In this document: positions 38,386 to 56,660 of the stretch, one piece after another
Layout of the letters: each line of letters starts with the position of its first letter
How positions within the stretch are numbered: position 1 is the stretch's first letter
Origin: Geomonas subterranea
GTDB taxonomy: Bacteria > Desulfobacterota > Desulfuromonadia > Geobacterales > Geobacteraceae
Reading direction: 5' to 3'
DNA length: 64,000 nt
Assembly (NCBI RefSeq): GCF_019063845.1
Contig: NZ_CP077683.1
Span: 2,046,001 to 2,110,000, forward strand
Position numbers and translations under genes: made by a program
Notes under the pieces: generated by a model
What the model saw: the letters and a program-made list of their open reading frames with translations, nothing else
The model's database searches: none
Told to the model about the DNA's origin: nothing

Positions 38386-38898
38386 TCAAGGGTAGTCTTT
38401 CGGGCCTACTATCGCGCTTCCTTTTAGAACGCTTAGCGTCAGTGAAAGGTTGCCTTTGTCGATGGGGCGGCACGACTCGATGATCGCTTTGAGGGACTTG
38501 TAAAGTAGGGTACCTCCGACGACTTCAGAGAGAACTTCACAAAATCTATTACGTGGTACCAGGGTCTCAAGTTCCATCAGTCCTTCGATGTTTTCCAAGG
38601 TGATGTCCCTGCATATCTGGCGAACAGACTCCTTGTTGCATATGTCCGGGTAGGCTCCGGCAAGATGCCTAATGGACCTTTCGCCGGCAAGATACCTGAG
38701 CATGGCACTCACCTGCATATTCGTGGCAGCCGCAAGTTCAGATACCCAAGCATCGAAGGAATTAGCCTCACTTTTCCATAAGCCTTGGTCCTCAACCGAA
38801 CAGAGTTCTGCGGCTATCTCCCTCCACCCCTTGGCCCCTCCGCGTATTCGACCGATCACCTCGTTCTGCCGAGGCTTTTCGCTACTTCTTTGTTCCAT
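38386..38898 (-). CDS. Hypothetical protein at the end of the nitrogen operon
   Basis: 170 aa with SD GGGGAAGGG, 21 nt after the LOG gene stop, so probably the last gene of the long operon. Helical, with motifs such as SFDAWVSELAAATNMQVSAM and YLAGERSIRHLAG that look like a small helical DNA- or protein-binding region. No family recognised. It may be truncated, since unrelated HisKA debris lies just beyond its stop. Confidence 0.55.
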   Translation of the reverse strand: MEQRSSEKPRQNEVIGRIRGGAKGWREIAAELCSVEDQGLWKSEANSFDAWVSELAAATNMQVSAMLRYLAGERSIRHLAGAYPDICNKESVRQICRDITLENIEGLMELETLVPRNRFCEVLSEVVGGTLLYKSLKAIIESCRPIDKGNLSLTLSVLKGSAIVGPKDYP

Positions 38899-38919
38899 TC
38901 AAACCCTTCCCCTGTGACC

Positions 38920-39510
38920 TCAAGTGTCGGCAAATCCGAGTGCCCATCCAACCTTGTCGAGATGAGGCTGCTGGAAACGTGACATAGCCTGAAGTAATTC
39001 CGCGGGTTCAGCTGAAACCGCGAGGGTTTCGATCGTAGCTGGCGGCGCAAACTGTTCTTCGATCATATGGCTGAAGAACCCTAGGAACCGGTCGTAGTAC
39101 CCTTCAATGTTCAGCAGCCCGCAAGCCTTATGGTGAATGCCGAGCTGAGACCAAGTGAGGATCTCGACGAGTTCCTCGAGAGTGCCAATGCCGCCGGGCA
39201 AGGCGATGAAGCCGTCTGCGAGTTGCGCCATCAGTGCCTTGCGCTGGTGCATCGACTCTACGATGTGAAGCTCGCTCAGGTGCTTGTGGGCCAGCTCCTT
39301 CTCAACGAGCAACCGTGGAATGACGCCAGTCACCCTGCCGCCTGCATCCAAGACGGATTGCGCCAGAGCCCCCATGAGTCCTACGCCCCCCCCGCCGTAC
39401 ACGAGTTCCATGTCGGCATGTACCAGTGAGCGGCCAAGTTCCCGCGCGGCATCCACATAGGCCGGTCGCATACCGGGACTGGATCCGCAAAAGACACAGA
39501 TACGTTTCAT
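38920..39510 (-). CDS. LOG-family nucleoside-monophosphate phosphoribohydrolase
   Basis: 196 aa from ATG 39510 (ATGA overlap with pyrR; GGAGG SD). Family landmarks: VFCGSSPG, YGGGGVGLMGALA and the PGGIGTLEE catalytic loop. LOG enzymes cleave the N-glycosidic bond of AMP or cytokinin ribotides, releasing base and ribose-5-phosphate. Coupling to a phosphoribosyltransferase gene suggests handling of a nucleotide or base related to the pathway upstream. This last point is inference. Confidence 0.88.
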   Translation of the reverse strand: MKRICVFCGSSPGMRPAYVDAARELGRSLVHADMELVYGGGGVGLMGALAQSVLDAGGRVTGVIPRLLVEKELAHKHLSELHIVESMHQRKALMAQLADGFIALPGGIGTLEELVEILTWSQLGIHHKACGLLNIEGYYDRFLGFFSHMIEEQFAPPATIETLAVSAEPAELLQAMSRFQQPHLDKVGWALGFADT

Positions 39511-40067
39511 GCACAAGCCTCCGATAACTCTGCCATGCGGACCAAGGCGACGGTCTGGGGTACGCGATCATCTCCGTACTTCACCTCAATATCCTCAGCC
39601 CGAGACGTCGGGAGACTGCGCCCCACATAATCCGGGCGTATCGGAAGCTCGCGATGGCCACGGTCGATTAGGACTGCGACCTGTATGTTACGCGGGCGCC
39701 CCAACTCGAAAATTGCGTCAATCGCAGCCCGAACGGTGCGCCCGGTGAAAAGTACGTCATCGATCAGAATCACCTGGCAGTCGTTGACCGAAAAGTTCAT
39801 CTCGGTCTTCCCCACTACTACCTTACGACGACTTGCAATGTCATCTCGGTGCATGGCGATGTCGACCGTTCCTATTGGCACCTTGCAACTGGTTATGTCC
39901 TGAAGCTTGTGCTGCAGCAATACAGCCATGTAGTCGCCGCCGTTTGATATGCCGACCAATACCAGCTTGTCGCCCCCCTTGTTGCGCTCAAAAATTTCAT
40001 GGGCGATCCTGGTGAGAATTCTGTCTATGCCCGCCGCGTCCAACAGCTCATTTCTGTTCGTGACCAC
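39507..40067 (-). CDS. pyrR: PyrR-type uracil phosphoribosyltransferase
   Basis: 186 aa from GTG 40067, chosen because GGGGAGGG lies 5 nt before it and the length then matches PyrR (about 180 aa). The PRPP loop VILIDDVLFTGRTVRAA and the following RPRNIQVAVLIDRGHRELP are near-typical PyrR. Known PyrR binds pyr leader RNA and makes UMP from uracil and PRPP. No pyrBC genes adjoin, so here it may act as a salvage enzyme or as a repurposed regulator. It overlaps the LOG gene by 4 nt. Confidence 0.82.
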   Translation of the reverse strand: MVTNRNELLDAAGIDRILTRIAHEIFERNKGGDKLVLVGISNGGDYMAVLLQHKLQDITSCKVPIGTVDIAMHRDDIASRRKVVVGKTEMNFSVNDCQVILIDDVLFTGRTVRAAIDAIFELGRPRNIQVAVLIDRGHRELPIRPDYVGRSLPTSRAEDIEVKYGDDRVPQTVALVRMAELSEACA

Positions 40068-40104
40068 GCTTCCCTCCCCCAGTGCACCGCCCAATCCATT
40101 CGTC

Positions 40105-40803: not shown

Positions 40804-41004
40804 TCAACCTTGCACAACGTCAGTCTGCGTGTACCGGTGGACGAGCTTGCCGAAAGCCTCCCTCAGCACGTCAGAAATGCCTGGCCCACCTTTACTTGAA
40901 ATATCGTGGAAGTTCTCCAACTCAACATCGCTCACCCTGAATGAGATGACGTGCTTGCGGGACGGCTCCCGGTCACTTTCCCTCATCGCTCTTCTTCTCG
41001 CCAT
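40804..41004 (-). CDS. Small ribbon-helix-helix-like protein
   Basis: 66 aa from ATG 41004 (AAGGAG SD). The segment KHVISFRVSDVELENFHDIS then GISDVLREAFGKLV fits a ribbon-helix-helix DNA-binding unit with a basic N-terminal arm. It starts within the end of the MBL-fold gene (32-nt overlap). A local repressor role is plausible but unproven. Confidence 0.5.
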   Translation of the reverse strand: MARRRAMRESDREPSRKHVISFRVSDVELENFHDISSKGGPGISDVLREAFGKLVHRYTQTDVVQG

Positions 41005-41632
41005 ATCCTGTTCTCCTTACCCTGAATGGTGCATCATGCCCAGGCACCACCCATTCAGCCATTGCTACTATTTGGTTAATCGACTCAACGCAGTGGTCAC
41101 GATCCCAGTGAATGGAGGGAGGGACACGTTTTTCGTAGTTGGCTGCCAACGGAAGTGCGTCCCCAGCAATTACGACATCAGCCCCGCTTCCTCCAAATGA
41201 AGAAATGGCATCCTTCACGACCACACTCAGGGACCCACAGCTGTGCCCTGGGGTGGGATGCAGTTCGATACCTGGTCCTATCGTGAAGGCTGATCGAACC
41301 AAACAACTCCCCGCCGATACCGGAATTCGTGAGCCGATCTCCGGCTCCAGAAGGTGGGCCATAAAAACGGCTCTCGGAAAAAGGTGGTTGCATCCAACGT
41401 GGTCCCAATGTCCATGAGTATTCACCACGATGTCTATATCCACAGGCGCCAGGTGCAACCGCCACAGAGCCTCTGTCACCGCCAAAGCATCTTCAGGTGC
41501 CCCGGTATCAACTACTATTAACCCTTGGCCGGAGCGAATAAGACATATGGACGAATGGGCATCCAGAATGTTTCCATCTTCCCGCCGCAGCAGGCTCCCC
41601 TGCTGCAGCAAATGCACTTCAGGCTGCCTCAT
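40973..41632 (-). CDS. Metallo-beta-lactamase-fold hydrolase
   Basis: 219 aa from ATG 41632, which overlaps the stop region of the ABC ATPase gene by 14 nt; the longer frame has no support. The zinc motif THGHWDH is present, with further ligands expected in TPGHSCGS, AGDALPLA and PGHDAPF. Glyoxalase II-like small hydrolases and lactonases share this layout. Located directly behind the importer genes, it may hydrolyse an ester, lactone or thioester in the pathway. Confidence 0.8.
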   Translation of the reverse strand: MRQPEVHLLQQGSLLRREDGNILDAHSSICLIRSGQGLIVVDTGAPEDALAVTEALWRLHLAPVDIDIVVNTHGHWDHVGCNHLFPRAVFMAHLLEPEIGSRIPVSAGSCLVRSAFTIGPGIELHPTPGHSCGSLSVVVKDAISSFGGSGADVVIAGDALPLAANYEKRVPPSIHWDRDHCVESINQIVAMAEWVVPGHDAPFRVRRTGYGEKKSDEGK

Positions 41633-42443
41633 GGCGTGCCTGTTGCGTATTGGTGACATGCCGGCCCGGCTTTTCGGATAGGGGGTCGGACGACGATGCC
41701 AGCAGTTCCAAAATGGTGCGCCGCATCTGGTTAAACTCAAAACTTGTCCTGTCACGTGGATGCGGCATATCGATGTCAAATGTCCGAAGGACCCGGGCTG
41801 GGCTGGGTGAGAAAACTACTATTCGGTCGCTGAGAAAGACTGCCTCATCCACGTTATGAGTGACAAAAAGGATCGTGTCGCGCCGGACCAGCCACAGTTT
41901 GATAAGGAAGGCGTGCAGTGCGTTGCGCATCTGGCAGTCCAAGGCGCCGAAGGGTTCGTCCATAAGGACCAATTGCGGGTTGTTGATCAGAGTTCTGGCG
42001 ATGGCGACCCGTTGTTTCATCCCCCCCGACAGTTCTTTCGGCAGACAGGACTCGAAGCCGGAAAGTCCGAACGCAGCGATGTACTCCATGGCCGCTCGAC
42101 GCCGCTCCTTTTTAGGGACTCCGGCGAATTCAAGCCCGGCCTCGATATTCTCCAGCGTGGTCCGCCAAGGGAACAGGGCGAACTCCTGGAATACCATCCC
42201 AACCCGGGGGTCCCGGCCGGTTACGGAGGCACCATCTAGAAGAATTTCCCCTTGGTAGTCTTGGTCCAGCCCGGCGAGGATCCTGAGCAGCGTGCTCTTG
42301 CCGCTGCCGCTTGGGCCTAGCAAGGAAACGAATTCTCCCCGCCTGACCTGCAGGTCCAGGCAATCCAAGGCCCGGTAGTCGCTCCGGTTGTCGCTTCCCG
42401 CGAAGGTCTTTGACAGACCACGTATTTCAACGTTCACTGCCAT
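41619..42443 (-). CDS. ABC transporter ATP-binding protein, SsuB/TauB type
   Basis: 274 aa; SD AGGAG 5 nt before ATG. Walker A GPSGSGKST, Q loop QEFALFPW, signature LSGGMKQR, Walker B LVLMDEPFGALD and H-loop THNVDEA are all intact. It energises the permease encoded 12 nt upstream. Family members import sulfonates, taurine, nitrate or related small anions and N-compounds. Confidence 0.9.
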   Translation of the reverse strand: MAVNVEIRGLSKTFAGSDNRSDYRALDCLDLQVRRGEFVSLLGPSGSGKSTLLRILAGLDQDYQGEILLDGASVTGRDPRVGMVFQEFALFPWRTTLENIEAGLEFAGVPKKERRRAAMEYIAAFGLSGFESCLPKELSGGMKQRVAIARTLINNPQLVLMDEPFGALDCQMRNALHAFLIKLWLVRRDTILFVTHNVDEAVFLSDRIVVFSPSPARVLRTFDIDMPHPRDRTSFEFNQMRRTILELLASSSDPLSEKPGRHVTNTQQARHEAA

Positions 42444-42455: not shown

Positions 42456-43211
42456 TCACTGCCAGGCGGCACATCGATCCCGGACGACACGCAGTCCCTT
42501 GTCCAGTATGATGCCGACGAAGCCAATCACGCACATCCCAGCTACGATCAGGTCCGGCCGCTGAATGTCCCGGGCAGTCATGATCATATAGCCAAGCCCG
42601 TACCCTTCCCGGACCCCTGTGAACTCAGCAGCGACCAAGGTCATCCAGCCAATGCCAAGTCCAATCCTCACTCCAGTGAATATTGAGGGGACTGTGGCCG
42701 GAATGAGGATTTTGAAAAAGACGGTCCGCCTTGCAGCATTGAGGGTTCTTGCAGCATCCAGAATTACGGGGTCGATGGACTTCACACCCGCCATGGTATT
42801 TAGAAGAACCGGAAAGAAAGCGCCGAGAAAGATGATGAACGCGGCAGCCTTGTTGCCAATGCCGAACCAAAGGATGGATATCGGGATCCAGGCCATCGGT
42901 GGCACCGGCCGCAGCAGTTCCAGTGGCGCTTCTAGGCAGCTCCGCACCCGGCGCGACCATCCCATCGTAAGCCCCAGCGGCACCCCGATGGCCACCGCCA
43001 GCGAAAACCCCCACCCTACACGAGCCAGGCTGTAGTAAATGTGCGGCAGGAGTTTGCTTCCCGGGGGCATCCCATTCAACGCTAGCTCCACCATTCCTTC
43101 CAAGACCTGCGAGGGCGCTGGCGCCTTGATGGGCGAGACGATGCCCGCCTGACAAAAAGCCTGCCATAGGGCGACCAAACAGACAGAGGATATGAGAGCC
43201 TTGGGTCTCAT
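42456..43211 (-). CDS. ABC transporter permease, SsuC/TauC type
   Basis: 251 aa with about six TM helices. The EAA loop is recognisable as DAARTLNAARRTVFFKILIP. The gene overlaps the binding-protein gene by 4 nt and precedes the ATPase, forming a complete ABC importer in the inner membrane. Confidence 0.9.
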   Translation of the reverse strand: MRPKALISSVCLVALWQAFCQAGIVSPIKAPAPSQVLEGMVELALNGMPPGSKLLPHIYYSLARVGWGFSLAVAIGVPLGLTMGWSRRVRSCLEAPLELLRPVPPMAWIPISILWFGIGNKAAAFIIFLGAFFPVLLNTMAGVKSIDPVILDAARTLNAARRTVFFKILIPATVPSIFTGVRIGLGIGWMTLVAAEFTGVREGYGLGYMIMTARDIQRPDLIVAGMCVIGFVGIILDKGLRVVRDRCAAWQ

Positions 43212-44206
43212 CGTCCGGCGCGCTGTGCCGCTGATTCCTGCCGCACGAACTTGCCAATGAAACCGTCTACGTCCTTGATGCGGATGTACCCCAGGCCGGT
43301 AAGAAAGCGCGCGTAACGGCGGACCCCGTCTGCATCCAGAGTGGGGTTATAGTGGACTGTTTTCATAGCGCTCCGGATGGTCTTTTCGTCCATCCCCGTG
43401 TATTTCACCGCGATGTCGACAGCCTTATCCCTGTTCTTACCAATCCACTCGACAGCCTGTCGGTGGGCCCGCAATACTGCGTTGACCTGATCGGGGTGGG
43501 AAGCGAGGAATTTAGCATCGGCGACCACTACACAGCAGGGATGGCCGGGCCACATCTCGCCCGATGAGACGAGGGTGCGCCCTACCCCCATCTGGGACGC
43601 CTTGGCGGGATACGGCTCCCATGCTATGAATGCGTCGACATCGCCGTTGCGCAGAGCGCTGATCATTTCAGGGGGCTTGACCACCAAAAACTTAACCCGG
43701 TCAAGCCGCACCCCCTGCTTGGTGAGCGACTCCTTGAGGAGGAAATCCTGCACCGTGGACAGGCCGGGGATGGCAACACTCTTCCCTTCCAGATCCTTGA
43801 CCGTCTTCACCAGATGCCTGCCGTTCGAGGCGACCACCAAGGCCGACCCCTCGGCGTTAGATTGTGATAGCACCACCACGTCGGCCGTGCCGTTGGCAAC
43901 GGCTGCGGTTGCCGGTGCGACCCCTACGTACGCCATGTCCAAGGCCCCGGCGGCGAAGGCCGACATGATATCCGGGCCGGAGCGAAACACCCCCGCTACC
44001 TCGACGTTTGCCCCCTGGCGTGCCAGAAAGCCCATGTCGCGGGCGACCCAAAACGGCAGGTGGTGAATGTCGTTTTGCAGGTAAGCGACCCGAACAGGTT
44101 TCTCCGCGGCATTACCGGCGCTCCAGCAGGCCATCGCCGCAAGGATAAACACTGCACAAACCAGGACGGCCGCCTTCTTCATACCAACAGCATTCAAGAT
44201 CTTCAT
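43208..44206 (-). CDS. ABC transporter periplasmic binding protein, NMT1/SsuA/TauA type
   Basis: 332 aa with signal peptide (AAVLVCAVFILAAMACWS...AEKPVRVAY). The fold is a type II binding protein of the SsuA/TauA family: KSVAIPGLSTVQDFLLKE and DVDAFIAWEPYPAKA, the latter a ligand-pocket segment. It confers import specificity; the ligand cannot be read from sequence. Expected substrate from context: a small anionic or ureido nitrogen compound. SD GAGGAG about 9 nt before ATG. Confidence 0.88.
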   Translation of the reverse strand: MKILNAVGMKKAAVLVCAVFILAAMACWSAGNAAEKPVRVAYLQNDIHHLPFWVARDMGFLARQGANVEVAGVFRSGPDIMSAFAAGALDMAYVGVAPATAAVANGTADVVVLSQSNAEGSALVVASNGRHLVKTVKDLEGKSVAIPGLSTVQDFLLKESLTKQGVRLDRVKFLVVKPPEMISALRNGDVDAFIAWEPYPAKASQMGVGRTLVSSGEMWPGHPCCVVVADAKFLASHPDQVNAVLRAHRQAVEWIGKNRDKAVDIAVKYTGMDEKTIRSAMKTVHYNPTLDADGVRRYARFLTGLGYIRIKDVDGFIGKFVRQESAAQRAGR

Positions 44207-44245: not shown

Positions 44246-45022
44246 TCAGCACGGCATCAAAAGCACTACGCGACCCCTTCGGTTCCAGACACGCTTCAGG
44301 TTGAAGGCGCCTAAGCCGCTGTTCTGCTCGGTCAGGTCGCCAGTGGCAGGGTGCTCACGGTACCCCACCCTCTCCCAGGCTGCGCGGACCTTTCCCGCAT
44401 CGGGACAGGCTTCCGTCAAAAGCAGGTAGACCGGCGCTCCGCGTAGCCTGCAGGCGGCGAAGAGGTCTGGAAGCCGCTCCTGCGGGAGATAATCCGGAAC
44501 ATTGCTCAGGTAGGCGAAGTCGTAGTCGCGTGCCGGCTCGGTCAGGAAGGCAGCTATGTCCTGCTCGTGCACCCGGATCCGCCCTAAAAGCGGCTTGATT
44601 CCGTCTAGAGGCTCCTCCTCAAAAAAGAACCGGATATGAAACAGCTCCTTGAGCGCCTGGAGTACACCCTCCAGGGGATACTCATGTCCGCGCCCTTTCG
44701 AAAAGTGGTAGTGCAGTTGCGGGTAGATAATTTCGGAAAACCATCCGGTAAGGGCGCTCGGAGTGGAACACCCCTTGAGCGCCAGCAAAAGCGACTTGAA
44801 ATAGGCGACTTGAAATTCGGAGATGTCCACGAAGGCGATCTCCTCAAGACGGGGAAGCTCGGACAGGGCATCGAGCAGGACCATACCGGAGCCACCTACG
44901 AAAACGGGCCTGCGTGGTGAGGCATCCAAAAGGTTCAGCGCGGCCCTCACCGTCCTGGCATCCTCGTTGGGGATGTAAAAGCGGCTTTTGTCGCCCCATT
45001 GTTTGCTGTTTGTTTTGGTCAT
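44246..45022 (-). CDS. Putative Rossmann-fold protein, methyltransferase-like, unknown function
   Basis: 258 aa. The segment PVFVGGSGMVLLDAL then EEIAFVDISEFQVAYFKSL is arranged like the SAM-binding part of Rossmann methyltransferases, and DYDFAYLSNVPDYLP could be the motif IV equivalent. The glycine loop GGSG is not canonical, so substrate binding is unsure. It resembles BtaA-type proteins only in general layout. Its ATG overlaps the stop of the AIR-synthase-like gene. Confidence 0.5.
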   Translation of the reverse strand: MTKTNSKQWGDKSRFYIPNEDARTVRAALNLLDASPRRPVFVGGSGMVLLDALSELPRLEEIAFVDISEFQVAYFKSLLLALKGCSTPSALTGWFSEIIYPQLHYHFSKGRGHEYPLEGVLQALKELFHIRFFFEEEPLDGIKPLLGRIRVHEQDIAAFLTEPARDYDFAYLSNVPDYLPQERLPDLFAACRLRGAPVYLLLTEACPDAGKVRAAWERVGYREHPATGDLTEQNSGLGAFNLKRVWNRRGRVVLLMPC

Positions 45023-45999
45023 TTACCGAATCCTGTGAATTCTTCCTCGGACCAGTCCCACAGGGTCCGCTCGACTCCCCCCATGGCCAGCCCCAGTTGC
45101 GAGCCCCCACGGAACCGGCCGATCTGATCGGCCCGGAGCCCCCGGGAGGCGAAGAGGTCCTGCACCTCGGCGAGATTTTGTGGGGGGACGGCGAGGAGAA
45201 ACCCGTAAGAGAAGAACGCCAGAAGCCACTTCTCGACCGGAACCGCCGGCGGAGCGGCGAGACGCTCCAGATCTATCGAGAGACCAAGCCGTGAACTTTC
45301 AGCTAACATCAGAGCCGTCCCCGCCACTCCCGCCATGCTGACATCCTTACCGGCCCGGGAAAGCCCCAGCTCCGCCACCTGCGGCAGCAGCTCCAGGTCG
45401 CCGCGCAGCTCCAAGTCGCCTCGCTCCCCGCTGGAATTCCAGAAGCCGTGCTGCTCCAGGAAGGTCCCTTTCTGGTTGTAGGCCAGTACCAGCAGGTCGC
45501 CTGCACAGGCGTCGAAACTCGTCAGCAGTCGCCGGGCCCGTCCCAAAATGGCGAGCGCGAGGGAGGCCTCTCCGTCACCATCGGAGGTATGCCCGCCGAC
45601 CAGCGGCACTCCCAGGCGGTCGGCGTTGTCCTGCATGCCGCGGAAGATGGCGCGGGTCCGCTCCTCGGAGGCATTGCAGATCACGTCGACCATCGCCAGC
45701 GGACGCCCCCCCATGGCGTAGATGTCGTTCACGTTGGCAAGGACGGCGGAACGTCCGGCAAGATACGGATCCGACTCGATGAGCCACGGAGCGATCCCCT
45801 CGGCGGCCAGAAGCAGATAGCCGTCACCGTCCGGGATGGCAGCAGCATCGTCGCCATTGAGAATCCCATGGGATGGAACCTGCCCCCCGAACTGACGAGC
45901 GATTGTGCTTATGGCCCGCTTTCCGGCAAACACACGGGAGGAGCGTAGTTCCTCCACGAGTTGGGCTAGTTGGTGCGCCGGTCTCTCTTGCTGTGGCAT
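45019..45999 (-). CDS. AIR-synthase-related protein, Sll0787/MSMEG_0567 C-terminal family
   Basis: 326 aa. ATP-binding PurM/SelD-like fold: GILNGDDAAAIPDGDGYLL, the ANVNDIYAMGGRPLAMVDV segment and GGHTSDGDGEASLAL. Family members accompany the Nit1C radical SAM and GNAT genes in cyanobacteria and mycobacteria; in mycobacteria it is fused to the GNAT domain. The reaction is unknown; PurM-like enzymes make acyl-phosphate intermediates and amidines. It overlaps the DUF2877 gene by 34 nt. Confidence 0.85.
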   Translation of the reverse strand: MPQQERPAHQLAQLVEELRSSRVFAGKRAISTIARQFGGQVPSHGILNGDDAAAIPDGDGYLLLAAEGIAPWLIESDPYLAGRSAVLANVNDIYAMGGRPLAMVDVICNASEERTRAIFRGMQDNADRLGVPLVGGHTSDGDGEASLALAILGRARRLLTSFDACAGDLLVLAYNQKGTFLEQHGFWNSSGERGDLELRGDLELLPQVAELGLSRAGKDVSMAGVAGTALMLAESSRLGLSIDLERLAAPPAVPVEKWLLAFFSYGFLLAVPPQNLAEVQDLFASRGLRADQIGRFRGGSQLGLAMGGVERTLWDWSEEEFTGFGK

Positions 46000-46913
46000 G
46001 TTTCACCTATCACTGGCGGTGTATAAAACTGAAAAGAATCCCTCTTGTTCACCACCTTACTGCGCAGAAGACTTTCAAGGGTCGTAACTAGACCGCAAAG
46101 TTGATCAGTTCCGCTGGTGTGCCCGAAGCTGGCAATTTTGCGCGTTAGATCAAAAATCCCCTCTGGCCTGCCTAGATGAACTGCTGTGAGCCAAGCGGCC
46201 ACTTCCTCGGTCACAAGTCCCCGGGCCGCACAGCGAATCATCTGGCCAGAGAAAGTGGAGGTTCCGGCCGCTGCCAACTGTGCCCATCTGTCGATATCCT
46301 CCTTCGAAGGCCCCCACAGTCCGCTTTCCCTGCGGAAAACGAGGGAGGCGAAAAAGCCGCAGAGGAAATCGTCTCCAGATGGGGTTAGCCCCACCCCCAG
46401 GCCGGCCAGTCCGCCGATCGGTCCAATAAGCGCCCCCCAGGCCTCACGCTCCAGCGCGTTCTTCAAAGTGGCGACCTGCGCCTCGGCAGCCATAGCGAAC
46501 GGGCTCTGGTCATGAGCACAGAAGAGAAGTTCCCCCAGCCCTCCTTGGCGGTAACATCCTCCAAGCGCACGCCTGGTCTCGGCAAGACAGTGAAGCTGGC
46601 AAATACTCAGGGCCGGCCGACAAACCCCGGCTTGCGGAGAAAATTCTTCAAGGCCTCTCAGATTGAACCAGCCCCTGCGTTCGAACATGAGGCCAGCTTC
46701 TTCGAACCGGAAACGCTCTCCCAGCTCAAGAGAGGGAAGGCAACCGGCGAGGCTTATGGTGTAGGGGTGGCGGGAAATACTTGAATCCCCCACGGTGACC
46801 ACCTCGCCGCCTGCCTCAAGGTGGGCCGCACGCGCGAAGACACCGACTACCCTCCCCGCAGCATTGTGACGGGACAGGCGCAGCGCCTCGCAACCGATGC
46901 TTCCCGCCTGCAC
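45966..46913 (-). CDS. DUF2877 protein, AllH/YlbF-type component of oxamate carbamoyltransferase
   Basis: 315 aa from GTG 46913 (GGAGGAG 5 nt upstream); the apparently longer frame runs through the preceding gene. The DUF2877 hallmark GLGVGLTPSGDDFLCGF is present. In E. coli, FdrA, YlbE and YlbF (AllFGH) form the enzyme that converts oxalurate plus phosphate to oxamate and carbamoyl phosphate. All three partners plus carbamate kinase are in this operon, so a carbamoyl-transfer role is likely; the acceptor may differ. Confidence 0.82.
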   Translation of the reverse strand: MQAGSIGCEALRLSRHNAAGRVVGVFARAAHLEAGGEVVTVGDSSISRHPYTISLAGCLPSLELGERFRFEEAGLMFERRGWFNLRGLEEFSPQAGVCRPALSICQLHCLAETRRALGGCYRQGGLGELLFCAHDQSPFAMAAEAQVATLKNALEREAWGALIGPIGGLAGLGVGLTPSGDDFLCGFFASLVFRRESGLWGPSKEDIDRWAQLAAAGTSTFSGQMIRCAARGLVTEEVAAWLTAVHLGRPEGIFDLTRKIASFGHTSGTDQLCGLVTTLESLLRSKVVNKRDSFQFYTPPVIGETCHSKRDRRTN

Positions 46914-49596: not shown

Positions 49597-51111
49597 CTAA
49601 GCCCCGGTGACGATGTTGAGCGCGGCGCGTACCGCCGCGGCGTTGGTCGAGAAGGTGAAGATGCCCGCTGCCTTCAGTTTTTCTTCCTGGGCGTGCAACG
49701 ACTGAGGATCCTGGTCGGTGCCGCAGACGTGGGCAATGACGACAGGACCGCCATCTTTTGCGGCCGCCCTCCCCTCGCAGACCGCTGCTACCATGTCCTG
49801 CGCGGGGTCGCTGTTGGCGCCGTAACCAATGACGACGTCGATCAGGAGCACCTTGGTGTCCGGCGCGGAGACCGCGGCTACGATCCTCTCCTGGCGCAGC
49901 GTGGAGTCGATCATGGGGTGAGGACGCCCCTGGGTGAACTCATCCTCGCCCAGATCGATGGCGTAGTGCGCCGACCCGTGCGCCGGGTAGGCGAGCTTCA
50001 TTTCCTTGTCCAGAGCGATGTTGGAGTGGACCGGCAACTTGCCGTCCAGGATGAGCAGGGCCTCGTAGCAGAGGGTTCCGCCGGAGTACAGCGCCCGGAA
50101 GAACTGCCGGTCGGAGGCGAGCGCGGCGGCCTGGCCGCGGAGCGTGTCGCAGGCGCACGAAACCGGGGGCTGCATCTTCAAGGCGGCGCAGGCGGCCTCC
50201 TCAAGTGTGCTCACCACCGTGATGTTGTCCGAAACCTCCGCGTATTTTGCGGCGTCGCGCCCCAGGAGGCAAGCCACCACCGGCAGCCCGCAGTTGGCGG
50301 CCTCCGCCAGGACATCGGCCATCACCTGCGGCGCGCCCGGCTTCGAGATGAGCACCAGGGATTTCGTTGCCGGGTCCTTGGCGAGCTTCTTGATGGCCAG
50401 GCGCATCATCGCCCCGCCTACTTCCTTTTTCAGGTCGCGGCCGCCCACCCCGATGGCGTGGGAGATCCCGCCGCCGGCCCGGTCGATAAGGCAGGTGACT
50501 TCCTGCACCCCGGTCCCCGAGGCGCCGACGATCCCGATGGAACCACGGCGGATCACGTTGGCGAACCCGAGCGGGGTCCCGTTGATGATCGCCGTGCCGC
50601 AGTCAGGCCCCATGAGGAGGAGGTCCTTCTCCACGGCGAGCCGCTTCAGCTCCACCTCGTCCTCAATGGCGATGTTGTCGGAAAAGAGCATCACGTTCAG
50701 CCCGCGGTCGAGCGCGGTGACCGCGTCGAGCTTGGCGAACTGTCCCGGAACCGAGAAGAGCGCGAGGTTTGCGCCGGGCAGGCGCAGGTGCGCCTCCTCC
50801 AGGGATTCCGGGTTCTTCTCTTGCGCTGTTGCGCCGCCGGCGTCGGCAAGCAGACGGTCGATCTCTTCGAGCGCCTTCCTGCAGGACTCCTCCGAGTCCG
50901 CCTCGATGCAGATGACCAGATCGTTGGGAGTGGCGGAGCGCACCTCGTCATCCAGCTGGCCCAGGCCGTCCAGCACCTTCTTGTTCCCTTCCGTACCGAG
51001 CAGTGCCTGGGCGGTCCTCACCCCCTCCAGCGCCGTTGCCTGGCGGGAGATAGTCATGAGGCGGACCGAATCCTTGTATTCGTTCTTCCTTACGATTGTT
51101 GTAATAGCCAC
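49597..51111 (-). CDS. fdrA: FdrA-family acyl-CoA-synthetase-like protein (AllF)
   Basis: 504 aa, the usual FdrA length. The two CoA-ligase-type halves are visible in LLMGPDCGTAIINGTPLGF, GIVGASGTGVQEVTCLIDR and KVLLIDVVIGYGANSDPAQ. FdrA with DUF1116 and DUF2877 proteins makes the carbamoyl-phosphate-forming enzyme of purine-ring catabolism in E. coli. It sits between carbamate kinase (39 nt upstream) and the GlcD-like gene. Confidence 0.9.
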   Translation of the reverse strand: MAITTIVRKNEYKDSVRLMTISRQATALEGVRTAQALLGTEGNKKVLDGLGQLDDEVRSATPNDLVICIEADSEESCRKALEEIDRLLADAGGATAQEKNPESLEEAHLRLPGANLALFSVPGQFAKLDAVTALDRGLNVMLFSDNIAIEDEVELKRLAVEKDLLLMGPDCGTAIINGTPLGFANVIRRGSIGIVGASGTGVQEVTCLIDRAGGGISHAIGVGGRDLKKEVGGAMMRLAIKKLAKDPATKSLVLISKPGAPQVMADVLAEAANCGLPVVACLLGRDAAKYAEVSDNITVVSTLEEAACAALKMQPPVSCACDTLRGQAAALASDRQFFRALYSGGTLCYEALLILDGKLPVHSNIALDKEMKLAYPAHGSAHYAIDLGEDEFTQGRPHPMIDSTLRQERIVAAVSAPDTKVLLIDVVIGYGANSDPAQDMVAAVCEGRAAAKDGGPVVIAHVCGTDQDPQSLHAQEEKLKAAGIFTFSTNAAAVRAALNIVTGA

Positions 51112-51150: not shown

Positions 51151-52095
51151 CTAGCAGCTCACGATACGGGTGCAGTTCCCGTTTTCCATCGCGTCCACGA
51201 TCCCTTTTTCCGTGGTAATGATGACTTCTTTCCCTCCGTGGGTGAGGTACTCGATGGATGCCTCGATCTTCGGCCCCATGCTGCCCGGGGGGAACTGCCC
51301 ATCGGCAAGCCACTGCTTGGCCTCGGTGGCGGTCATCAGGTCGATGGAGCGCTGTGTCGGTTTGCCGAAATCGAGCGCCACCTTGGGCACGCCGGTCAGC
51401 ACGACGAACAGTTCCGCACCGAGGTTGTAGGCGAGCAGGGATGCCGCGAAATCTTTGTCGATGACACCCTCGGTGCCCATCACCTCGCCGGTATGGTAGT
51501 TGACCGGGATGCCTCCGCCGCCGCAGGCCACGACGATGACGCCGCTCTCGGCCAGCTGCCGGATCACGTTAAGGGCAAGCACCTTCTTCGGCTGCGGGGA
51601 GCAGACCGTGCGGCGGTATCCCCTCCCGGAATCCTCCACGATGGCCCACCCCTCCTTGTCCCTGAAGCGTTCCGCCTCCTCCTGGGTAAAGAAGGGGCCG
51701 ATCGGCTTGGTCGGGTTCTGGTAGGCCGGGTCTTTCTCGTCGACTACCACCTGGGTCATGATGGTGGCGACCTCCTTGTGCAGGCGGTCCTCCTCAAGCA
51801 CCGAGCGCATGCCGATCTCGATCATGTGTCCCAGAAGCCCCTGAGATGAGGCGACGGCCACATCCAGCGGCGGAACCGGGATCTGGTCGCGTGCCTTCTC
51901 GAACTGAAGCAGCAGGTTGCCGACCTGCGGGCCGTTGCCGTGCACGATCACCAGTTCGTAACGCTTGTGCAGGATGGCGAGCATCTGGCGGCACGCCGCC
52001 TTGACGTTCTTCAACTGGGTCTCGAACGACCCGTCCTCGTTGGCGGCGAGAATCGCGTTCCCCCCCAGGGCGACTACTGCTATCGGTTTAGGCAT
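51151..52095 (-). CDS. arcC: Carbamate kinase
   Basis: 314 aa, full length. Family motifs: VALGGNAILAA, VIVHGNGPQVGNLL, VVACGGGGIPV and KDFAASLLAYNLGAELFVVLTGV. It uses carbamoyl phosphate and ADP to make ATP, CO2 and ammonia, the energy-conserving end of arginine, allantoin or creatinine catabolism. No arginine deiminase or ornithine carbamoyltransferase gene is near, so carbamoyl phosphate must come from the neighbouring FdrA/DUF1116/DUF2877 proteins. It overlaps the DUF1116 gene by 8 nt. Confidence 0.95.
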   Translation of the reverse strand: MPKPIAVVALGGNAILAANEDGSFETQLKNVKAACRQMLAILHKRYELVIVHGNGPQVGNLLLQFEKARDQIPVPPLDVAVASSQGLLGHMIEIGMRSVLEEDRLHKEVATIMTQVVVDEKDPAYQNPTKPIGPFFTQEEAERFRDKEGWAIVEDSGRGYRRTVCSPQPKKVLALNVIRQLAESGVIVVACGGGGIPVNYHTGEVMGTEGVIDKDFAASLLAYNLGAELFVVLTGVPKVALDFGKPTQRSIDLMTATEAKQWLADGQFPPGSMGPKIEASIEYLTHGGKEVIITTEKGIVDAMENGNCTRIVSC

Positions 52096-53488
52096 GGTAG
52101 TTCTCCTTATCCTTGAGTGCTTTCACGAACACCTCCATCGGTGCGCGCGCGATACCGGCTCCGATCTGGCCCTTGCCCGACGACTTGTGGATCACGCCGG
52201 TGTCTATGATCGGGGTAAGTCCGTTCTGAACTACCTTGCGGATGTCTATACCAAGCGGGGCGGGCATAAAGTCGGCCGCAGCCGGGGCGAAGCGTGGGTT
52301 GGAGCCGACGCAGATGGTCTGCATCTTCTTCATGGTGGACCAGAGGTCCGCCATGCTCCCTCCGACGAAGGAACTCAGGGTGCAGGCCGCGCCGATCACC
52401 ATGCCCCCAAGCCCCAGGGTCTCCACGATCGCCGAGTCACCGATGTCGCCGGCCGCGTCATCCACGGAGTAGCCGGCGTAGTAGATCGCCTCGTCCATCG
52501 GCGCGGTCTTGGCGATGTACCAGCGGTCCGAGCCGCCGATCCTGAGGGCAAAGTCGACACCGTTTCTGGACATGGCGGTAACCACGGTCGAGTTCTTCAC
52601 CCCGTGGGCGGCCTCGGCGGCAACCTTGCACGCGGTGAGGGTTAGATTGAGGAAGAAGTGGCTGTTCGCGTCGATCGTTTTGGCTATGGCCAGGATGCTT
52701 TCCTTGTCGAGGTCCGTCTGCAGCAGCAGGGGCAGGAGCTTCTTGAACAGTAGCGACGTGCATGCGCCGCTTCTCGCGTGCACCTCGTCACCCATCTGAA
52801 CACCCTCGGCGATGATCTGGAAGATATCGATCCCGGTCTCACTCTGCGCCAGCGCCTTCTTGAGCCCCGGGCCGAAGTGGTCGCGGAACCAGCGCAGACG
52901 CTCGATGGTCCCCTGGTCGTAGGTGCCCATCCAGAGCACGTTCCCCTTCCCTTCGTTGAACGGGGACCAGGCGCGCTTGCCGGAGGCGGCATCCTCGGTG
53001 ACGATCACCGGCATGGAGGGGGAGATGGGACCGCACATGGGGCCGATGCTGCCCAGCATGTAGTTGGGGCAAAGCTCTATCTCGCCCCTCTCCAGCTTCT
53101 GCACCAGTTCATCGCGGTTTTCCACCCACCCCTCGAAGATGGCGGCACCTTCAATGGCGCGCTGCTGCGGATCGCACATGGTCTCGAAGGCGATAGGAGG
53201 ACCGGAGTGCAGAAGGTGATTGGGCTTCATCCCCGGGATCACGTCGATGGCGCGCTCCACGTCGATCCACAGGGGACGCGCGTCGATCATGCGCTGCACC
53301 GTTTCGCGGTTCGCCTTATCCACCTCGGGGCCGCGTAACCTGATCAGGGCCTCGACCAACTCCTGGTCGCCACCTGCGGGGGGGCGCCAGTCCACTTGCA
53401 CGACCGGCACGGATTGGCTCTTGAGATCCTGGCAGAACCCCTCCAGGCCAAGGTTAATGACATTGACACTTTGCTGTAGAATGCTCAT
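52088..53488 (-). CDS. DUF1116 protein, AllG/YlbE-type component of oxamate carbamoyltransferase
   Basis: 466 aa from ATG 53488 (GGAGG 4-5 nt upstream); the longer reading overlaps the GNAT gene without need. DUF1116 features: NVINLGLEGF, LLHSGPPIAFETMCDPQ, HARSGACTSLLFKKLLP and RNGVDFALRIGG. Part of the carbamoyltransferase that also needs FdrA and the DUF2877 protein. The start lies 35 nt inside the GNAT gene. Confidence 0.88.
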   Translation of the reverse strand: MSILQQSVNVINLGLEGFCQDLKSQSVPVVQVDWRPPAGGDQELVEALIRLRGPEVDKANRETVQRMIDARPLWIDVERAIDVIPGMKPNHLLHSGPPIAFETMCDPQQRAIEGAAIFEGWVENRDELVQKLERGEIELCPNYMLGSIGPMCGPISPSMPVIVTEDAASGKRAWSPFNEGKGNVLWMGTYDQGTIERLRWFRDHFGPGLKKALAQSETGIDIFQIIAEGVQMGDEVHARSGACTSLLFKKLLPLLLQTDLDKESILAIAKTIDANSHFFLNLTLTACKVAAEAAHGVKNSTVVTAMSRNGVDFALRIGGSDRWYIAKTAPMDEAIYYAGYSVDDAAGDIGDSAIVETLGLGGMVIGAACTLSSFVGGSMADLWSTMKKMQTICVGSNPRFAPAAADFMPAPLGIDIRKVVQNGLTPIIDTGVIHKSSGKGQIGAGIARAPMEVFVKALKDKENYHA

Positions 53489-54041
53489 GGTCCTCCACCC
53501 TAACTTTCGTTGTTTTTTCACCGTCGACCGAGTGCCGCACCGTTGCTGGCTCACGGCCGAGAAGATGCTCCATCACCTGATGCTTCACTCCTACCAACAT
53601 GATGGGATGCCCCAAGGGAAACCACCCCAGTCTCTTGAAAAACCTTACGTTCTGGATTTGCACCGTCGCCAGGAAGCGGTCCGCCTCCGGGTGGCAGGAC
53701 ATCACCTCGACCGCTTTGCGCACCAGCATCGCCCCGATGTTGTAGATCCGGTACTCGGGGAGCACCGCAAGCCTGCCGCCATACCAAAGCGTGCCGCTCT
53801 TACGGTAGCAGCGCACCGCTCCCACCACCCGCTCGTTCATGATAGCGACCAGTGGGATCGCGTCCCCGTCGTGGTCGTCGAGGTCCGTTACGCTGTAGAT
53901 CTCCTGCTCGTTTACGAAAACCTCCTTGCGGACCTGAAAGTAGCCTGAAAGCTTCCAGGAGGAGTTGGCGACTTCGATACGGAAGGACGGTTCCGAATGC
54001 ATTCCGGCTGCGGCAGGATCTGTTGTGCGAGTATTTCCCAT
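53454..54041 (-). CDS. GNAT-family N-acetyltransferase of the nitrogen-starvation (MSMEG_0567/Sll0786) type
   Basis: 195 aa from ATG 54041 (GGGGG 5 nt upstream, 8 nt after the radical SAM stop). GNAT core: FQVRKEVFVNEQEIY, WYGGRLAVLPEYR, IGAMLVRKAVEV and VQIQNVRFFKRLGW. In Nit1C loci this protein always accompanies the radical SAM gene. Substrate unknown. Unlike mycobacteria, the AIR-synthase-like part is a separate gene 8 kb further on. Confidence 0.87.
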   Translation of the reverse strand: MGNTRTTDPAAAGMHSEPSFRIEVANSSWKLSGYFQVRKEVFVNEQEIYSVTDLDDHDGDAIPLVAIMNERVVGAVRCYRKSGTLWYGGRLAVLPEYRIYNIGAMLVRKAVEVMSCHPEADRFLATVQIQNVRFFKRLGWFPLGHPIMLVGVKHQVMEHLLGREPATVRHSVDGEKTTKVRVEDHEHSTAKCQCH

Positions 54042-54049: not shown

Positions 54050-55147
54050 CTACTCGATCATCTGAAGGATGGAGCATGCCTTGCACTTGGCGCATCCGGC
54101 TGCGCATCCGTCGGCGCTCATATCCTTTTCTTTAAGCATCTGGGCCACTGCGAGGTACATGCGCTGTAGGTACTCCGCGTCGGGGGGCTTCACCTTGGCC
54201 ATGTAGGTGTTGTCCACCGGTCGCAAGGGGACCAGGAAAGGGTAGACCCCTATCTCCACGGCCTTTCGGCACTGTTCGAGGGTGAGCGCCTCATCCTCGC
54301 CAAGCCCGAGGATCACATAGGTGCTCACGCGGTTGCGGCCGAAGACGGCCACGGCGTCCTCGAAGGCCTTGAAGTAAGCCGCTTCGCTGATGGTGGACTT
54401 CCCCGGCGTACAGCGTCTGCGCACGACGGGGTCGAAACTCTCGATATGAATCCCCACGTCATCGACGCCGAGGGACTTCAGGTAGTCGTAGATCGCCGGG
54501 TCCTCCGGCGGCTCAAACTGGATCTGGACAGGCAGCCCCGAGGCCTCTTTGACCGCAGCCGCACATTGTCCGAGATACCTGACGCCGTCGCTCACCGGTT
54601 CGGTGGTACCCGATGTAAGTGTCACGTGGGTCACGCCGTCCAGGTCCCGCGCGGCAACCGCGGCCTCCGCCAGTTGCTGCGGTGTTTTGGTGTGAATCGT
54701 ACCCCCTGCCTCCAGAGAAGTGCCGATGCTGCAGAAGCGGCAACGCATCCGGGTATCGTTGTAGCGGACGCATTCTTGGATGACGGTCGAGGCTAGGCAG
54801 TCGCTGCCGTGCAGCCGCGCAATCTTGCGAAAGGGGATTCCGTCGCTACTGGAACGCTCGTAGAAGCGGGGCTGCGCCACCTCCTGCGCAGTCTCGATTA
54901 CTTGGCCATCTTTCTTAATGACGAATCCATCGCCGCACGCTTCGAAAGTGAACCGTGATTCCCGTACGGCGCTGTTGAGCGTCGGCACCATCAGTGCGTG
55001 ATCACCGAATTTGAAGGTCTTCGCACCACTTGGGCCGGCTCCTCCCTTGCGCCCCATCTCCTCACACGTTCCAACGGCACCAAAGCTCTGTAGCTCGATC
55101 AGGTCCCGCAATCTTTCTGCCATCGCCTCGTTTTTCATGTTCTCCAT
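54050..55147 (-). CDS. Radical SAM protein, MSMEG_0568/Sll0785 family
   Basis: 365 aa from ATG 55147; ATG 55138 with GGAG is an alternative. The cluster cysteines are Cys126, Cys136 and Cys139 (CVRYNDTRMRCRFCSIG), a CX9CX2C spacing that replaces the usual CX3CX2C. The C-terminal tail holds four more (348, 352, 355, 358: CAAGCAKCKAC), probably a second Fe-S cluster. Family members belong to the nitrogen-starvation / Nit1C locus; chemistry unknown. A paralog lies at 63107. Confidence 0.9.
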   Translation of the reverse strand: MENMKNEAMAERLRDLIELQSFGAVGTCEEMGRKGGAGPSGAKTFKFGDHALMVPTLNSAVRESRFTFEACGDGFVIKKDGQVIETAQEVAQPRFYERSSSDGIPFRKIARLHGSDCLASTVIQECVRYNDTRMRCRFCSIGTSLEAGGTIHTKTPQQLAEAAVAARDLDGVTHVTLTSGTTEPVSDGVRYLGQCAAAVKEASGLPVQIQFEPPEDPAIYDYLKSLGVDDVGIHIESFDPVVRRRCTPGKSTISEAAYFKAFEDAVAVFGRNRVSTYVILGLGEDEALTLEQCRKAVEIGVYPFLVPLRPVDNTYMAKVKPPDAEYLQRMYLAVAQMLKEKDMSADGCAAGCAKCKACSILQMIE

Positions 55148-55238
55148 CCTGAGCCTGTCCGCCCTCGCCTGGTAATCATCCCGTCCATGCGACCAGTTGC
55201 CGCCGCATGGACGGGACCCGTATATGCCCTGCCAGGTG

Positions 55239-56111
55239 TTACCTCACCCCGTACAGGTTTTCTGCGTTCTGCCAGAAGATGTTGTTCTTCAGCTCCTCCG
55301 AGATCTCGGCGCCCTCGATCTTGTAGAACTCGCTCCAGAAATCGCTCCAGGGCTCGTCAGAGCTGAACATGACGCGGTCGTGGCCGAGCCCCTGCTTCTC
55401 GATCTCGTCCAGCAGGTAACGTACGCCGAAGCCTACCGCCCACGAGGTGTCGGTGTAGACTTGGTACCCTTCGCGAATGAGGTTGAAGAATTCGGGCACG
55501 AACTTTATATGCCCCGAAACTCCGCCGCCGGCGTGAACGGCGTGAACCTTCACACGCTTTCCGAATGCGCGAATGAACTTGATGCAGTTGCTTATGTCCG
55601 ATCCGCCGCCCGGGCTCGTGTGCAGGTGCAGCACGTGGTCGTGCTTCTCGGCGGTCTCGATGACCTTAGCCCACATCCCGGCTGTCTCCTCGTCCCACTC
55701 CTCCGGGTTCCAAGTGCCACCAAGAAGACAGGTCGCCTTCAGCACCTTGACGCCCGGCTCGCCGGCCAGGGTCATCGCGTTCAGGGTCGCCTCCTTCATC
55801 TTGGCCATCGGCGAGAACCAGACCCCACCTAGGATGCGCTTGTCTTCCTTAGCACAGGCGTCCAGCACGACCGAGTTGAGGCCGAAGGGCTGGCTCGGGT
55901 CAGGAATGCCGTAGTTCGACATGACGATGGCGCGGTCGACGCCGATGAGGTCCATCTGCCTGACCTTGGACTCGCGGTCCGGGTCTTGGAACACGGTGGG
56001 GTCGAGCGGAGCAGGCGCACCGTAGTAGGGGTACGGCTTCATTTCACCTATGTGGTTGTGGACGTCGAAAACCTTCCTTCCGGTCTTCAACCCTTTTTTC
56101 CAGCGGTCCAT
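55239..56111 (-). CDS. Amidohydrolase-2 (TIM-barrel metal-dependent hydrolase) in nitrilase position
   Basis: 290 aa. Metal ligands expected at His18 and His20 (DVHNHIG), then LHLHTSPG, VHAVHAGGG and the Asp in FSSDEPWSDF. Amidohydrolase-2 enzymes hydrolyse or decarboxylate C-N or C-C bonds. In canonical Nit1C loci a nitrilase gene (MSMEG_0571/Sll0784) occupies this slot between the MSMEG_0572-like and radical SAM genes. Its replacement suggests a different substrate bond, such as an amide, ureide or cyclic imide. Confidence 0.82.
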   Translation of the reverse strand: MDRWKKGLKTGRKVFDVHNHIGEMKPYPYYGAPAPLDPTVFQDPDRESKVRQMDLIGVDRAIVMSNYGIPDPSQPFGLNSVVLDACAKEDKRILGGVWFSPMAKMKEATLNAMTLAGEPGVKVLKATCLLGGTWNPEEWDEETAGMWAKVIETAEKHDHVLHLHTSPGGGSDISNCIKFIRAFGKRVKVHAVHAGGGVSGHIKFVPEFFNLIREGYQVYTDTSWAVGFGVRYLLDEIEKQGLGHDRVMFSSDEPWSDFWSEFYKIEGAEISEELKNNIFWQNAENLYGVR

Positions 56112-56174
56112 AACATCCTCCTTTTGATGGAAGTTGGCGCGGCGCCGACGGCTGCCGGAGCCGCGCGACAGGAT

Positions 56175-56660
56175 CTACACGGTCCAGGTCTGGATAATCA
56201 ACGCACCGGACCTCTGGTGCTCGATGAGGCAGTCCAGGACGTCCAGCTGGTGAATGATCTCGACACCCTCGATCATGTCTTCTTCCCTGTGCCCATAGAG
56301 TGCAGCCATAGCGAAGCGGCAAGCCAGAACGCGCCCACCTTCCTTAAGGATGGTCTTGATCTGGTTGTTGATTGCCTGGTTCCCCGGGAAGGCGTCATCG
56401 CCAACATTCGGGTAGCCGCGGGTCTCCGCTGCCATCAAGACGCCCGGTCCGTACAGGAGCAGCGTGACTTTGTACCCCTTGCGTACCAAGCGGGTACAGG
56501 TCAGCAGGTTGATCAGCCCGACCGACCCCTCGAACGGTACGGTGTGCATGGTGATGAGGGCTTTGTCTCCCTCACGCGCTTTGTAGTCCTCGTACATCTT
56601 GGGGTTGTCATTGACGATTGCGTCCCCCGGCTGCGGCCTCTGAATCTTCACTCTTGCCAT
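56175..56660 (-). CDS. MSMEG_0572/Sll0783-family nitrogen-starvation response protein
   Basis: 161 aa from ATG 56660 (AAGGAGG 7 nt upstream); the frame extends further but without support. Family sequence is clear: KALITMHTVPFEGSVGLINL, LLYGPGVLMA, DDAFPGNQAI, LACRFAMAALYGH and LDVLDCLIEH. The fold is DsrE-like. In Synechocystis sll0783 is strongly induced by nitrogen starvation and needed for polyhydroxybutyrate build-up. It is the first gene of the long operon, 110-120 nt after the sigma-54 promoter. Confidence 0.92.
   Translation of the reverse strand: MARVKIQRPQPGDAIVNDNPKMYEDYKAREGDKALITMHTVPFEGSVGLINLLTCTRLVRKGYKVTLLLYGPGVLMAAETRGYPNVGDDAFPGNQAINNQIKTILKEGGRVLACRFAMAALYGHREEDMIEGVEIIHQLDVLDCLIEHQRSGALIIQTWTV

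Follow-up and report, generated by a model that had tools for sequence, protein, structure and literature searches.

Nit1C gene clusters were named in 2005 (PMC1199592), and their chemistry has stayed open since then. They are needed for cyanide use in Pseudomonas (PMC11049912) and are strongly induced by nitrogen starvation in Mycobacterium smegmatis (PMC6039565). The other described system of concern here is the AllFGHK carbamoyltransferase and carbamate kinase set of Escherichia coli. We have analysed a window of 64,000 nucleotides, the whole stretch from position 2,046,001 to 2,110,000 of contig NZ_CP077683.1 of Geomonas subterranea (assembly GCF_019063845.1), in which 22 minus-strand genes (38386-56660, a total that includes two small open reading frames (ORFs) at ~40576-41004) combine a Nit1C core of NitB, NitD (radical SAM), NitE (GNAT) and NitF (AIR-like) with AllF, AllG, AllH and AllK. 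An initial annotation of this DNA had reported such a run of 22 genes with Nit1C families and a carbamoyl-phosphate set. Its count is right if the two small ORFs are included, and the TIGR04043, TIGR04044, TIGR04045, TIGR04049, FdrA, arcC, AllG and AllH models all score over their cut-offs at that place. All the genes that it named are present, although it omitted an Amidohydro_2 gene (AmdH) that is found in many related loci.

The linkage of the Nit1C core with AllF, AllG, AllH and carbamate kinase occurs in several phyla. Scanning species genomes with a profile yielded 573 relatives; the best 80 of them were taken as Nit1C radical SAM loci and scored by tblastn. AllF/AllG were found in 41 of the 80 loci and a Nit1C-type nitrilase in 13, while no locus had both (Fisher 2.6e-5). 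The linked loci come from this host, Desulfovibrio, Desulfosporosinus, Chloroflexota and many Actinomycetota. We found no description of this form, here termed All-type, in the literature; nor was any literature found on Nit1C with carbamate kinase or with coenzyme M, which is weak evidence of absence since most subscription papers lay outside the search. We put at about an even chance the reading that the locus in the window belongs to a widespread All-type form of Nit1C, in which the core makes an intermediate and AllFGHK replaces the nitrilase as the nitrogen-release module. Such a replacement is the simplest account of two modules that never share a locus and of the Paraburkholderia locus L119 described below. 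The recurrence of the linkage in several phyla, often beside coenzyme M genes, looks like one overlooked pathway.

Neither module was detected in 26 of the 80 loci. Among these, L075 and L077 (Desulfovibrio) and L118 (Chloroflexota) have AllG farther along the same contig. The genome of L082 carries GlcD-GlcF-AllK-AllG-AllF on another short contig, and AllG was found in 30 of the 50 loci genomes that were searched whole. Nitrile hydratase alpha is present in 14 of the 80 loci, all of them AllF/AllG-positive. The Desulfovibrio locus L076 keeps the order of the window from NitB to the gene for a 258-aa protein, with OsmC and other genes inserted and AllH undetected. The insertion of the All genes between the GNAT and AIR-like genes, to which the initial annotation had drawn attention, is seen in the window and again in L076, whereas the remaining linked loci that were mapped do not have it.

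The initial annotation held that the two gene sets belong together and proposed co-occurrence within 15 kb as a check, with its absence elsewhere as a ground for refutation. That ground falls away: besides the occurrence in several phyla, such co-occurrence was found when 346 genomes of Actinomycetota were sampled evenly around a centre genome, G354. Over the whole draw, TIGR04043 scored over cut-off in 20 genomes, while AllG was found in 43 and the coenzyme M biosynthesis-like gene ComA in 33. With G354 dropped, AllG lies 2.5-13.2 kb from the radical SAM gene in 8 of the 19 genomes that have the latter (one of the eight, G546, is the genome of L112 and so already among the 80 loci). A crude estimate of the chance of such co-location is 2e-20 for 18 genomes, G366, with AllG on another contig, being dropped too. 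Both this figure and the ComA p-value given below assume independent genomes, which makes them too small. Chance does not explain the pairing of Nit1C with the All genes. The 20 kb fetched at the eight linked loci contain NitB in eight, AmdH in seven and ComA or Xcb-like lyases in five.

Phylogenies were built for AllG (51 sequences, midpoint-rooted) and, by a quick method, for the radical SAM protein. AllG of the window groups with those of Desulfovibrio and Desulfosporosinus (98/95), all 3 of 3 being linked, and in an actinobacterial clade 33 of 34 rows are linked to the radical SAM gene. A neighbouring set with 14 members comprises AllG of E. coli, 12 of the 13 further unlinked copies and a single linked one, L133, which has a second AllF. 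Overall, linked AllG sequences fall mostly in clades apart from AllG of E. coli. In the radical SAM tree the window joins Desulfovibrio (99), and 12 of the 13 nitrilase-type rows form a single branch, next to two Chloroflexota loci with AmdH and coenzyme M-like genes. This, together with the wide occurrence of the linked form, lends no support to the view of the initial annotation that the fusion is a local novelty. The thirteenth nitrilase-type row, L119 (Paraburkholderia elongata), lies inside the actinobacterial All-type clade; it has NitB and a nitrilase, AllG was not found in its genome, and it represents a natural swap. Over 26 loci, distances correlate with those of the radical SAM protein for AllG (r 0.94), AllF (0.92) and AIR (0.88; Mantel 0 of 999 for AllG and AllF), a comparison from which L078 and L133 were left out beforehand and in which part of the correlation comes from the separation of 2 anaerobe loci from the 24 others.

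NitA and its divergent arrangement have been described in Pseudomonas (PMC11049912). In the control region of the window, the AAA+ domain of the NitA-like activator is 63% identical to those of NitB-adjacent activators in three Pseudomonas loci and 58-62% identical to those in three Desulfovibrio loci, as against 41-50% for three other sampled activators. Upstream of the NitB start at 56660, the site TGGCACATCTGTTGC has 10 of the 10 sigma-54 consensus bases. Over the whole window the sigma-54 pattern with up to 2 mismatches matched 30 times, where shuffles gave 32.4, so that only the position and completeness of this site count. Between 8 and 10 of the 10 bases were found upstream of NitB in four loci of Desulfovibrio, three of Pseudomonas and one of Afipia; the scores were reached by 60 of 500 shuffles for L075 and 24 of 500 for L077 (both Desulfovibrio) and by 0-6 of 500 for L074, L076, Pseudomonas and Afipia. 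The tested actinobacterial, cyanobacterial, Chloroflexota, Paenibacillus and Desulfosporosinus loci have 4-7 of the 10. Between 38000 and 57000 there is no excess of sigma-70 promoters (4, against 4.8 in shuffles), and 17 terminators were predicted against 15.7.

In the pathway that we propose, the core would turn a small nitrogen compound into an intermediate, from which an exchangeable end module would free the nitrogen. In the known form this end module would be the nitrilase NitC, converting a nitrile to acid and ammonia. Here it would be AllFGHK, probably with AmdH: an acyl-urea would be phosphorolysed to an amide and carbamoyl phosphate (the AllFGH reaction as given in PMC11326118 supports this), and carbamate kinase would convert the carbamoyl phosphate to ATP, CO2 and ammonia. 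The oxamate/oxalurate transcarbamylase activity is predicted from membership of the AllF, AllG, AllH and carbamate kinase families. In anaerobic hosts this would be preceded by oxidation of a 2-hydroxy acyl-urea to its 2-oxo form by GlcD/GlcF, by analogy with the action of AllD on ureidoglycolate in E. coli, while either the substrate or a sulfonate co-substrate would enter through the sulfonate-type importer. We infer what the substrate is, in which direction the carbamoyl group is transferred, where coenzyme M comes in and what AmdH, GlcD/GlcF and the importer do. The nitrogen control of Nit1C (PMC11049912, PMC6039565) also favours this reading. The idea of the initial annotation that an imported small nitrogen compound yields carbamoyl phosphate and ATP is still plausible; anaerobic energy gain as the general purpose is not supported, since most hosts found are Actinomycetota and presumably aerobic. 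The alternation with a nitrilase narrows the likely product of the core, whose nitrogen would be released as a nitrile or as a carbamoyl group.

Several observations weigh against the replacement of the nitrilase by AllFGHK. NitC, NitG and NitH of the classical cluster were not found in the window: the nitrilase model TIGR04048 has no significant match there, and tblastn with the cyanobacterial copies of NitG (ORF6) and the flavoprotein NitH (ORF7) from L122 had no significant match in the window, to which the search for these two was confined. No Nit6803-type nitrilase is over cut-off in the genome, where the best score is 60.3 bits against 502.6. AmdH is not enriched with the All genes: it occurs in 25 of the 80 loci, that is in 14 of 41 All-positive loci and 11 of 39 others (p 0.63), with 0 of 13 among nitrilase loci. 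TIGR04043 is over cut-off in 26 of 297 genomes of the same phylum, the genome of the window included, and AllG was found in 0 of 30 same-phylum genomes searched (25 over the radical SAM cut-off and 5 below), which means that the core can do without AllFGHK. Neither module lies near the radical SAM gene in eight Pseudonocardia loci (L095, L100, L109, L111, L120, L125, L128, L144), and of the five Pseudonocardia genomes searched whole for AllG, three lack it. The anaerobe AllG group joins the E. coli-type set (17 rows, 100/98 with midpoint rooting) and not the actinobacterial clade, which with three label changes means that linked AllG is not one group. Moreover, carbamoyl transfer is reversible, so that AllFGHK could act anabolically; the coenzyme M genes, the apparently DsrE-like NitB and the mycobacterial peroxide/NADPH phenotype point to redox or cofactor chemistry; and the counts were made on related sequences, not independent events.

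Loci without AllG have other companions. In 28 loci (L042-L069) of the 30 same-phylum genomes, the radical SAM gene is accompanied by the same kind of importer in 16 and by a GlcF-like gene in 19. The Pseudonocardia loci without either module are flanked by glutamine amidotransferase/SIS, ABC exporter and GAF protein genes, which are probably unrelated. A form found in Bacilli (L079-L081, L083, L084) has the radical SAM, GNAT, AmdH, NitB, a methylenetetrahydrofolate reductase (MTHFR)-like protein, AIR, a long nitrilase-superfamily protein and an MsuE-like FMN reductase; neither AllFGHK nor a classical nitrilase was found within the stretch fetched. For the related-locus families u224, u85 and DUF7714 no function was found, and f31 is by appearance an antisense artefact.

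The most serious competitor, which we regard as possible but clearly less probable than the pathway above, is synthesis of a cofactor or thiol: the core would make a redox cofactor or some other small molecule that contains sulfur, carbamoyl phosphate would serve to carbamoylate it, coenzyme M would be a precursor or partner, and a disulfide-reductase-like flavoprotein (in anaerobes the GlcF-like CCG protein) would keep it reduced. ComA is present in 20 of the 80 loci, 17 of them AllF/AllG-positive, and in 7 of the 8 actinobacterial genomes with linked AllG, as compared with 25 of the 336 others (Fisher 2e-7). ComA and XcbC-, XcbD- and XcbE-like genes stand in one locus with the radical SAM gene, the All genes and NitB or its neighbours in L107, L099, L118/L178 and others. 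The XcbD model is passed in L096 (623.3/600) and missed in L107 (596.9), L090 (597.7) and L086 (575.4), and the XcbC, XcbE and ComA models are the best matches in related loci, below cut-off. NitB appears DsrE-like, the glycosyltransferase family 4 protein of L099 is over cut-off for TIGR04047 with weak MshA/BshA likeness, OsmC and CoA-disulfide-reductase-like genes are neighbours, the 258-aa protein has the modelled fold of a methyltransferase dependent on S-adenosylmethionine (SAM), and the mycobacterial cluster confers peroxide resistance and raises NADPH/NADP (PMC6039565). However, ComA has 0 matches in the genome of the window and, among the genomes tested, was found in 1 of 4 from Desulfovibrio and 0 of 2 from other anaerobe Bacillota, in 0 of 7 with the nitrilase type, in 4 of 5 with the Bacilli form and in 3 of 10 with the transporter form. 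As the family also matches in the B. subtilis control, ComA alone is not proof of coenzyme M; L086 has an XcbC-like protein that is over the cut-off for argininosuccinate lyase as well (284.1/279.5); NitF has no invariant Cys; and nitrilase-type Nit1C is tied to cyanide use (PMC11049912). A version that joins both ideas, and that we consider rather unlikely, makes All-type Nit1C a coenzyme M-dependent nitrogen pathway, in which nitrogen would be moved or freed from a small compound attached to coenzyme M or a related sulfonate thiol and the carbamoyl phosphate kept, Actinomycetota and Chloroflexota making the coenzyme and anaerobes importing it through the sulfonate-type transporter. If true, this would be a third role of coenzyme M, beyond methane/alkane and alkene metabolism; titles in the literature on coenzyme M with carbamate kinase, radical SAM or phosphosulfolactate synthase point elsewhere. 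The coenzyme M-like genes offer an unexpected and directly testable handle in strains of Nocardioides, Kribbella and Nonomuraea.

We think it quite improbable that AllFGHK performs ordinary oxalurate/allantoin salvage and merely shares a nitrogen-controlled locus with Nit1C. AllFGHK does serve anaerobic allantoin use in E. coli (PMC11326118) and adjoins biuret genes in nitrifiers (PMC12625717), AllG of the anaerobes falls together with the E. coli-type set, and allantoinase is over cut-off in the three actinobacterial genomes tested. Yet no allantoinase is over cut-off in three anaerobe genomes, G000 (that of the window, best 256.5 bits against 357.85), G332 and G334, which weakens salvage as the whole story and does not favour allantoin among the nitrogen sources that the initial annotation had listed; judged from gene content, allantoin is an unlikely substrate. 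Against salvage there is also the fact that the linkage recurs across several phyla and that none of these loci contains the nitrilase. Chance or passenger neighbours after horizontal transfer we regard as very improbable. A search of 38 other relatives, among them 18 from the same genus, gave no TIGR04043 match over cut-off, which makes acquisition of the locus probable, but the linkage is conserved in distant genomes and distances are correlated. Chance is contradicted for the Nit1C-All pairing, though not for the distal genes (38386-41632).

Coordinates of the genes and control elements are collected in Table 1. From NitB through the metallo-beta-lactamase gene there are 16 genes with 15 junctions, at which the gaps range from -35 to 91 bases if the AllH start is taken as GTG 46913; the metallo-beta-lactamase gene is likely on the same transcript as the ABC ATPase gene. 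The seven distal genes are probably outside the shared module: when five of them were used as tblastn queries against related loci, the sole match was a weak one of the metallo-beta-lactamase (30%, L150).

Table 1. Features of the Nit1C-All locus, by position in the window. Score pairs are bits/family cut-off (NCBIfam, Pfam).
Feature	Coordinates	Strand	Evidence and remarks
Sigma-54-dependent activator, NitA-like, divergent from NitB	56933..58570	+	Activator families; AAA+ identity
Sigma-54 promoter-like site	56783..56798	-	TGGCAC-N5-TTGC, 10/10 consensus bases
NitB (MSMEG_0572/Sll0783), apparently DsrE-like	56175..56660	-	TIGR04044 211.3/109.85; invariant Cys114
AmdH, Amidohydro_2 metal-dependent hydrolase	55239..56111	-	Invariant H18, H20, K125, H164, H193, D252
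NitD, MSMEG_0568-family radical SAM	54050..55147	-	TIGR04043 397.7/303.7; invariant C126, C136, C139, C352, C355, C358
NitE, MSMEG_0567-family GNAT	53454..54041	-	TIGR04045 130.4/68.45; start chosen ATG 54041
AllG (DUF1116), predicted carbamoyltransferase subunit	52088..53488	-	Pfam AllG 233.7/27; alternative start GTG 53554
AllK/ArcC carbamate kinase	51151..52095	-	arcC 362.6/358.25
AllF/FdrA, predicted carbamoyltransferase subunit	49597..51111	-	FdrA NF004760 495.1/433
GlcD-like FAD-binding dehydrogenase	48090..49550	-	Profile matches
GlcF-like protein, 4Fe-4S and two CCG stretches	46916..48100	-	Best NCBIfam TfrB 248.3/385, below cut-off
AllH (DUF2877), predicted carbamoyltransferase subunit	45966..46913	-	Pfam AllH 78.7/25; start GTG 46913 inferred from sequence
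NitF, Sll0787-type AIR-synthase-like	45019..45999	-	TIGR04049 356.3/321.3; invariant residues without Cys
258-aa protein with no family match; fold predicted as that of a class I SAM-dependent methyltransferase	44246..45022	-	Structure model
Periplasmic binding protein, SsuA/sulfonate family	43208..44206	-	TIGR01728 189/163.5
ABC permease, TauC/SsuC type	42456..43211	-	Below equivalog cut-offs
ABC ATPase, TauB/SsuB type	41619..42443	-	Below equivalog cut-offs
Metallo-beta-lactamase-fold protein	40973..41632	-	Overlaps ABC ATPase gene
Distal genes: two small ORFs, methanogenesis-marker-9-like, PyrR-like phosphoribosyltransferase, LOG-family, hypothetical 170 aa	38386..41004	-	

The likeness of NitB to DsrE was noted independently in PMC1199592 (as YchN-like) and PMC6039565. 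Here PF02635 (DsrE) matched 11 of 14 members at E values up to 1 (best 6.7e-6), although the copy in the window scores 19.4 bits, below the 22.7 cut-off; the NitB profile matches structure 3mc3 with E 0.0023, and the NitB structure model has a confidence score (pLDDT) of 84. The metal-site residues of AmdH are invariant across ten members. The NitD radical SAM protein has no match among solved structures at 1e-5. The identity of NitF as a selenophosphate synthase was rejected for its lack of an invariant Cys, and that of GlcD/GlcF as glycolate oxidase for scores (91.2/567.9 and 70.4/333 bits) below cut-offs. The 258-aa protein has 71 relatives at 1e-5, itself included, and those with names are from Desulfovibrio, Solidesulfovibrio or Deltaproteobacteria. 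Its family profile gave weak and seemingly unrelated matches to PDB sequences. The structure model (pLDDT 91) has a predicted methyltransferase fold on which Foldseek and a second comparison agree; many methyltransferases tie in these comparisons, so that no substrate can be read from the fold.

A few further observations concern these genes and their surroundings. The N-terminus of AllG in the window carries a short stretch that corresponds to the C-terminus of FdrA in E. coli. The small Cys-rich protein resembling methanogenesis marker 9 (40105-40524) scores 83.6/96.2 bits, below cut-off, and its gene adjoins the PyrR-like and LOG-family genes. Coenzyme M-like genes in All-type loci (L086, L088, L090, L096, L099, L107, L118 and others) come from Actinomycetota, Chloroflexota and one bin labelled Bacillota, and many of these loci also have glycosyltransferase, OsmC, DUF7714 and CoA-disulfide-reductase-like genes. 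A second gene, for a protein related to the MSMEG_0568 radical SAM, lies at the end of the window (63107-64000, continuing in L041 108-1361; 200.6 bits, below cut-off), beside a methyltransferase gene (62433-63158) and a sulfite/nitrite-reductase-like gene (61429-62373); the radical SAM-methyltransferase pair also occurs in L069, and a B12-binding radical SAM protein and an RND pump are encoded upstream. Around ~28000-32000 the G+C content falls to 0.34 (window mean 0.57) near an ORF of 1153 aa without NCBIfam or Pfam match, possibly a recent insertion.

Compared with nitrilase-type Nit1C (Podar 2005; Pseudomonas nitBCDEFGH; M. smegmatis gpr), the window likewise has NitB, the radical SAM, GNAT and AIR-like proteins over cut-off, and shares with Pseudomonas a sigma-54 activator divergent from NitB. 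It has AmdH and AllFGHK where the nitrilase type has NitC, NitG and NitH, and it adds GlcD/GlcF, a sulfonate-type importer and a protein with a predicted methyltransferase fold. All four families of E. coli allFGHK (an oxamic transcarbamylase and a catabolic carbamate kinase) are present in one run here, although the order is G-K-F-(GlcD-GlcF)-H and no allantoinase is over cut-off; AllG of the window belongs to the anaerobe group, while both it and AllG of E. coli fall within one 17-row set under midpoint rooting. The bacterial coenzyme M pathway is that of XcbB1-E1 in Xanthobacter (names from NCBIfam). Related All-type loci contain ComA and XcbC-, XcbD- and XcbE-like genes, whereas the genome of the window is without ComA.

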